Shown here: positions 16,889 through 17,033 of the stretch, piece by piece
Layout of the letters: each line of letters opens with the position of its first letter
Position numbering within the stretch: position 1 is the first letter of the stretch
Source of the DNA: Antrihabitans auranticaus
GTDB lineage: Bacteria; Actinomycetota; Actinomycetes; Mycobacteriales; Mycobacteriaceae
Length of the DNA stretch: 64,000 nucleotides
Reading direction: 5' to 3'
Assembly (NCBI RefSeq): GCF_016481275.1
Contig: NZ_JAEMNW010000003.1
Coordinates: 248,001-312,000, forward strand
The notes under the pieces: generated by a model
Databases searched by the model: none
Told to the model about the DNA's origin: nothing
Seen by the model: only the letters and a program-made list of their open reading frames with translations
Translations under genes and position numbers: made by a program

Positions 16889-16894
16889 TAGACT
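16889..16894 (+). promoter_or_regulatory. -10 box TAGACT of the leuA leader transcript
   Basis: TAGACT ends 8 bases before the ATG of the leader peptide, so the transcript starts at or within about two bases of that ATG. No convincing -35 is seen. Confidence 0.5.
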
Positions 16895-16902
16895 CACGAA
16901 CT

Positions 16903-16944
16903 ATGCAGCGGGCGCTCCTCCTCAGCCGCCGCGGCGGGGTCTGA
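16903..16944 (+). CDS. leuA leader peptide (13 residues, three consecutive leucines)
   Basis: The frame reads [13 protein letters not shown] followed by TGA. The CTC CTC CTC run is a leucine sensor: slow decoding of leucine codons when leucyl-tRNA is scarce would stall a ribosome here and alter folding of the downstream leader. It lies 89 bases before leuA, and hairpins follow immediately. Leucine-rich leader peptides before leuA are established in actinobacteria. The ATG is nearly at the transcript 5' end, so the leader peptide itself seems to be translated leaderlessly. Confidence 0.75.
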
Positions 16945-17011
16945 TCCAGACCGGCTTCCCGTCGCGGGGTCCAGTCGCGCCGGTCGATCCAATCACCAGG
17001 ACGGCCCGTCC
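16938..17011 (+). promoter_or_regulatory. leuA attenuator region with competing hairpins
   Basis: Three stems are visible: GGTCT/AGACC (16938-16942 and 16948-16952) across the leader stop codon; GACCGGC/GCCGGTC (16949-16955 and 16979-16985); and GGACGG/CCGTCC (16999-17004 and 17006-17011). The first two overlap and are mutually exclusive, as attenuation requires. The third lies just before the leuA ribosome site (GGAGAA) and could act as terminator stem or in a translational block. Confidence 0.6.
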
Positions 17012-17033
17012 CCCAATTCGTCGGAGAATTGAC

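Follow-up and report, generated by a model that had tools for sequence, protein, structure and literature searches.

A pseudoknot-associated, predicted leaderless leucine leader peptide before leuA, with a valine-coded counterpart before a stand-alone LeuA regulatory domain

The leader region of leuA in Antrihabitans auranticaus is a LEU element (Seliverstov 2005), as judged against the description in the part of the PMC1262725 text available. Here, we find that the leucine codons, the distance from the last of them to an H-type pseudoknot, and the position of the leader stop codon are held nearly constant among relatives, and we consider it somewhat probable that the fold senses translation of the leader and raises leuA expression under leucine shortage. 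A second element in the same genome precedes a gene for the LeuA allosteric domain alone, and its leader is rich in valine.

A predicted leaderless leader peptide precedes leuA

The leuA gene, which specifies the first step of leucine synthesis, lies in a genome of 6.5 Mb, and the window, i.e. the whole 64,000-nucleotide stretch of DNA analysed, contains the complete gene together with its upstream region (Table 1). The leader open reading frame (ORF) encodes 13 residues and is Leu-rich. The first-pass annotation had placed its start about 8 bases after a -10 hexamer and had proposed that it is translated without a Shine-Dalgarno (SD) sequence, and both points hold: exactly 8 nucleotides separate TAGACT from the ATG at 16903, and no SD is found at 16887-16899. 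No sigma-70 site with 2 hexamers was found for the leader by promoter scan, and our promoter claim is therefore confined to the -10. Upstream of leuA lies a divergent gene (15981-16814, minus strand) that weakly matches the TetR N-terminal domain, at 20.1 bits with the cut-off set at 24.

Table 1. Coordinates of the leuA leader features, counted from the first letter of the window
Feature	Position	Strand	Remark
-10-like hexamer TAGACT	16889-16894	+	8 nt from hexamer to leader ATG
Leader ORF, predicted leaderless	16903-16944	+	ATG at 16903, TGA stop at 16942-16944
Leu codons CTC CTC CTC	16915-16923	+	inside leader ORF
5-nt spacer, last Leu codon to P1	16924-16928	+	spacing counted in relatives
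P1 5' arm	16929-16938	+	within leader ORF, Arg-Arg-Gly-Gly codons
Stem 1 (alternative hairpin) 5' arm GGTCTG	16938-16943	+	extends into stop codon
Stem 1 3' arm CAGACC	16947-16952	+	pairs with 16938-16943
P2 5' arm GACCGGC	16949-16955	+	in P1 loop; 16949-16952 common to stem 1
P1 3' arm	16958-16967	+	pairs with 16929-16938
P2 3' arm GCCGGTC	16979-16985	+	closes pseudoknot
leuA Shine-Dalgarno GGAGAA	17023-17028	+	read from sequence
leuA, 2-isopropylmalate synthase	17034-18818	+	TIGR00970, 943.9 bits; PF00682, PF22615, PF08502

The family search for leuA covered 201 genomes, and upstream DNA was collected for 140 loci (L007-L146), comprising the 30 best, 80 that were hand-picked and 30 from the lower part. 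A strict leader peptide motif is present at 132 of these 140 loci, the most frequent peptide being MQRALLLGCRGGV (16 loci), accompanied by close variants. The remaining 8 loci (L046, L077, L096, L105, L139, L140, L143, and L145) fail the strict motif, and variant leaders are visible in 5 of them (L096, L105, L140, L143, and L145). Among the 132 relatives, 107 leaders start with ATG and 25 with GTG, and the distance from the leader stop to leuA ranges from 51 to 238 nt.

A TANNNT hexamer lies 6-10 nt upstream of the leader start in all 132 relatives, and at 7 nt in 83 of these; for comparison, among 6600 positions drawn at random nearby, 83 (1.3%) have a TANNNT 5-10 nt upstream. The leader start had first been picked partly by the -10, and a repeat that ignored the -10 returned the identical start in 132/132. 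SD-like motifs, for their part, are found before the leader in just 4 of the 132 relatives and before leuA in 102. This promoter spacing supports the prediction that the leader is leaderless. More broadly, the comparison of relatives gives good support to the proposal that leuA is preceded by a leaderless leucine leader peptide and by structures that compete with each other.

The leucine codons are followed by a conserved pseudoknot

The structure alignment has 61 rows, obtained by redundancy filtering from 122 of the 132 relatives, i.e. those in which the leader and leuA are 60-175 nt apart. Two mutually exclusive stems had been noted earlier (16938-16952 and 16949-16985), and both are present, with 16949-16952 common to the two; the main helix, P1, had been overlooked. 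Because the P1 loop pairs with sequence 3' of P1 to form P2, the 2 helices together make an H-type pseudoknot. Across the alignment, 99.6% of cells in P1 and P2 are paired (P1, 99.7%; P2, 99.5%), and each helix has 3 pairs that change on both sides; these 6 pairs compare with a mean of 0.2 in shuffles. When the P1/P2 partners are slid by 1-3 columns, just 35-56% of cells pair.

Support for stem 1, the alternative hairpin, is weaker. Although 90.4% of its cells are paired in the same alignment, covariation in stem 1 is weak compared with the support for P1/P2. Specifically, 2 of its pairs change on both sides, a number equalled in 110 of 500 shuffles, while its 4 cells changed on both sides are equalled in 2/500 and its covariation score in 0/500. 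In the minimum-energy fold stem 1 is nested in P1, and RNAalifold, run on the full 61-row alignment, draws P1 together with the three inner pairs of stem 1; P2 is absent from this output because RNAalifold cannot draw pseudoknots. The single-strand free energy of the leader region is not above chance (z -0.66), and the case for the fold thus rests on comparison. No Rfam 15 covariance model matches at E<=1 within 16000-18000. In the window species, a 6-bp hairpin (CAATTC/GAATTG, 17014-17019/17026-17031) overlaps the leuA SD, and no conserved counterpart of this hairpin (17014-17031) is seen in the part of the alignment inspected.

Spacing and codon choice fit a sensing ribosome

In 58 of 61 rows, 5 nt separate P1 from the last Leu codon, and in the other 3 rows the separation is 2 nt; the stop codon sits 3 nt past the P1 5' arm in 58/61. 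Likewise, the codon that ends 5 nt before P1 encodes Leu in 132/132 relatives (CTC in 70, CTT in 62). Over the three leader Leu positions of these relatives, CTC or CTT accounts for 389 of 396 codons; in a set of 40 long open frames taken from the window, the two together make up 51% of Leu codons and CTG 34%. This leader preference may stem from an RNA contact or from a decoding tRNA shared by both codons. Frameshifting on the Leu codons, ahead of the pseudoknot, was considered and rejected: the lengths over which the other frames remain open vary (medians of 42 and 37.5 codons).

Judging from the promoter position, transcription would start at or within ~2 nt of the leader ATG, so that ribosomes would load on a bare 5' end and read the 13-codon leader. 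With ample Leu-tRNA, the ribosome would arrive at the UGA at 16942, located in the P1 loop, where a standard footprint would cover the 5' arms of both P1 and P2; the geometry is plain, and its effect is what we infer. With scarce Leu-tRNA, the ribosome would instead pause on the Leu codons. If the ribosome stalls while its A site holds the third Leu codon, general ribosome structure would place the first pair of P1 at the mRNA entry. The 5-nt spacer would therefore set that pair at the leading edge, and P1 and P2 could stay folded. A path from ribosome position through the pseudoknot to leuA expression fits this fixed geometry, and its last step we infer.

The pseudoknot could instead be the site of a protein that senses leucine or the nutrient state, in which case the leader peptide would be incidental or an aid to ribosome loading. 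This was the authors' own preference in 2005, as given in the available text of PMC1262725, where a helicase-like candidate protein with a matching phylogeny is proposed; the same text describes mutations in the leuA leader of S. coelicolor, affecting its Leu codons, that had some effect, unlike what is expected of classical attenuation, a result that counts against the ribosome-sensing view and in favour of the protein-binding alternative. The very strong conservation of P1 and P2 is likewise in keeping with it. Against this, almost every relative scored keeps the Leu codons, the 5-nt spacer and the position of the stop constant, and Val replaces the Leu codons in front of many of the orphan regulatory-domain genes. 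Neither feature would be needed by a site that only binds a protein, and these 2 observations therefore count against it; overall, we regard a protein site as unlikely.

The step from leader to leuA expression

If ribosome position is indeed what the fold senses, the output would preferably lie at the start of leuA translation, and our second choice would be a termination free of a U-run (such as Rho-dependent termination). The wide range of distances between leader stop and leuA (51 to 238 nt) counts against this scheme. Two established schemes were weighed against the evidence here, i.e. classical transcription attenuation and translation attenuation.

In classical transcription attenuation, P1 or a downstream hairpin would act as an intrinsic terminator. 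P1 is a 10-bp GC-rich hairpin, and in some relatives a short U-run follows it, with TTTT present in 18 of the 87 scorable among the 132. However, TTTT is missing from most of the scorable relatives, the window has no terminator-like site at 16700-17200, and a typical terminator is also missing from leuL1 of S. lividans, according to the portion of PMC8079986 available. We therefore judge this scheme very unlikely.

In translation attenuation, the Leu codons would pair with the leuA SD (the "base stem" of 2005), and a stalled ribosome would mask this anti-SD tract. The strong preference for CTC/CTT in the leader relative to long open frames speaks for such pairing, and so does the finding that 103 of 122 tracts contain 4 nt exactly complementary to the SD region. 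The pairing and accessibility models, which covered these 122 loci, point the other way. Specifically, the duplex of Leu tract and leuA SD has a mean energy of -7.51 kcal/mol, slightly stronger than the -7.21 kcal/mol expected from codon usage yet within the spread of swapped partners (-7.40 kcal/mol, sd 0.14), and its mean rank (random expectation 0.5) is 0.43 among codon-usage tracts and 0.53 when the choices are restricted to CTC/CTT. Modelled SD accessibility barely shifts, rising by 0.05-0.06 on stalling compared with free RNA in folds that cannot hold the pseudoknot; the gain exceeds 0.1 in 29 to 33 of the 122 loci, and in the window accessibility goes from 0.57 to 0.48 or 0.61, i.e. in either direction. 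In addition, the tract of the orphan class, commonly CTCGTAGTT, is no pyrimidine run, and the element is nonetheless kept there. On balance, we find the base stem quite unlikely.

Relation to known leader peptides

The LEU element of 2005 lies before leuA and combines a leader ORF with Leu codons, a pseudoknot and an alternative hairpin, and the Leu-codon run, the pseudoknot, the alternative hairpin and the position before leuA in Actinobacteria are all shared with the region studied here, as far as the text of PMC1262725 available allows comparison. That text also proposes the base stem, which our pairing tests leave unsupported and which we take as a proposed, not a defining, part of the element. 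Among the genes downstream of LEU elements, the same portion names leuA and one transposase gene of B. longum; the present analysis adds sites before stand-alone LeuA-domain genes, before leuA paralogues and before one leuB-like gene.

The closest published counterpart of the leader itself is LeuL1 of S. lividans TK24 (MRFGLLLLSCRGEGL), which RNA-seq places leaderless before leuA in the available part of PMC8079986. It shares with the leader described here the leaderless transcript, a Leu run followed by a tail containing Arg and Gly, and the lack of a typical terminator, and it differs in genus and length (15 residues compared with 13). The leuA leader of C. diphtheriae (MNRANLLLLRRGGSQA) shares the Leu-codon run and an RRGG tail; in the part of PMC5784534 available, its start site is unassigned and it is classed as attenuation. 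A Leu-codon run before leuA is shared by C. glutamicum (PMC4046766, in part), and ribosome profiling has revealed an upstream ORF before leuA in M. abscessus (PMC4974804, in part).

A leaderless start driving such regulation had been thought mechanistically unusual, a point that gives way to published precedents from amino-acid and aminoacyl-tRNA synthetase genes: leaderless leader peptides are described before leuA, leuS, trpE, and ilvB in S. lividans (PMC8079986) and before ilvB in C. diphtheriae (PMC5784534), in the parts of these papers available. A leaderless start of the leuA leader is thus not unusual for such bacteria. Since the LEU element dates from 2005 and the leaderless leuA leader of S. 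lividans is in print, neither aspect is new. Overall, the earlier reading of the leuA leader was partly right.

Work by Morbach in 2000 is said to have described an ilvBNC leader peptide that lacks a ribosome binding site. Leaderless polycysteine ORFs are reportedly attenuators in mycobacteria, according to Canestrari in 2020. By title and by citation in PMC13236596, these polycysteine ORFs share leaderless, codon-run sensing of an amino acid with the element here, the amino acid there being cysteine.

Distribution and other copies of the element

With a covariance model built from P1 plus sequence, the element is recovered from 199 of 201 genomes of the family and from 328 of 394 genomes of the class. 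In a sample of the phylum, 9 of 119 genomes matched, 1 of these 9 being outside the class; all genome-wide covariance searches used stricter filters, under which weak matches can be lost.

Among 42 further loci that were checked (L006, L148, and L178-L217), 36 have the element upstream of a LeuA homologue. Those at L178-L183, L189, L190, L193, L195, L197, and L199 were taken as preceding second leuA paralogues, and these homologues, where aligned, share 54-67% identity with the LeuA of the window. The elements at L006, L148, and L186 precede LeuA-domain proteins (for L006, at 24.5 bits against a cut-off of 24.9), as does that at L191, whose protein was recovered with a protein search and missed by Pfam; for the gene downstream of L192 no assignment was made. 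At L200 (G317:C1), the leader of a LEU-like element, MQWAVRILGCRDGVR, begins 305 nt upstream of a leuB-like gene (PF00180), and a small ORF lies in the intervening stretch. The leader rule failed at 11 of the 40 loci L178-L217.

A valine-coded element precedes a stand-alone LeuA regulatory domain

The second element of the A. auranticaus genome, found with the covariance model, lies at G000:C2:72122-72209 on the minus strand (locus L148). Its leader, MKRVLVVHRRSGV, is Val-rich and starts 8 nt after a -10, and the gene that follows encodes 165 residues matching the LeuA allosteric domain alone (PF08502, 32.5 bits, cut-off 24.9). Among 7 scanned homologues of this orphan protein, 6 pass the PF08502 cut-off and 1 scores 23.4. 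Its predicted fold (mean pLDDT 88.4) matches M. tuberculosis LeuA with a TM-score of up to 0.74 by query length at ~20% identity, and it also matches the isoleucine-bound regulatory domain of LiCMS. A contig scan with the orphan protein returned Antrihabitans stalactiti as the single named relative.

The element lies upstream of the orphan gene in 47 of 50 loci tested (L218-L267), i.e. in 30/30 of the best loci and in 17/20 of the weaker ones, the latter hand-picked; the protein search had given 118/121 matching genomes, a count that includes LeuA itself. The 3 loci where the element is absent all belong to one genus (g3). When orphan-class elements are aligned with the leuA class (26 of 30 elements and 18 of 61 rows, respectively), 9 pairs change on both sides, 5 of them in P1, and 41 compensatory cells are counted compared with 16.9 in shuffles.

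Orphan leaders are rich in Val plus Ile or Leu, with M-K/Q-R-I/V/L-L-V-V as the common form. Their Val codons are GTA in 69 of 101 cases, compared with 8.5% of Val codons in the long open frames of the window. At the codon separated from P1 by 5 nt, Val is found in 31 of the 44 elements scored among the 50 loci, in agreement with what codon sensing predicts, while the 13 of 44 that have no Val at this fixed position count against it. A -10 at the expected spacing is seen in 44/45, a count that is biased because the -10 helped to choose the start. By the rule used, 2 of the 47 orphan elements have no ORF (L255 and L265), and the leaders at L221, L222, L233, L235, and L242 end early, with the stop inside P1.

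From these patterns, we tentatively propose, as a possibility somewhat short of probable, that the LEU element is a reusable sensor of branched-chain amino acids, in which a leaderless mini-ORF is coupled to an H-type pseudoknot 5 nt past the sensing codon, and the codon sets the amino acid, i.e. Leu before leuA and Val before the stand-alone LeuA allosteric-domain protein. Such a sensor may co-regulate the enzyme and a free feedback domain across the family, presumably Mycobacteriaceae. In literature searches that covered mainly open-access papers and seldom named the LeuA domain, no report was found of a LEU element upstream of a LeuA domain that stands alone.

Implications for leucine-pathway control

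The leuA element has been known since 2005, and its mechanism was left open in the part of PMC1262725 available; no later test of this mechanism was found in the literature searched. The 5-nt spacing, the invariant CTC/CTT codon next to that spacer, the lack of support for SD pairing and the swap from Leu to Val now provide sharp tests of ribosome sensing vs protein binding. The feature in the window is itself little new, and it is the Leu-to-Val module across the regulon that is worth following. In these bacteria, the conservation of a LeuA regulatory domain as a protein of its own points to a possible further level of control over the leucine pathway.
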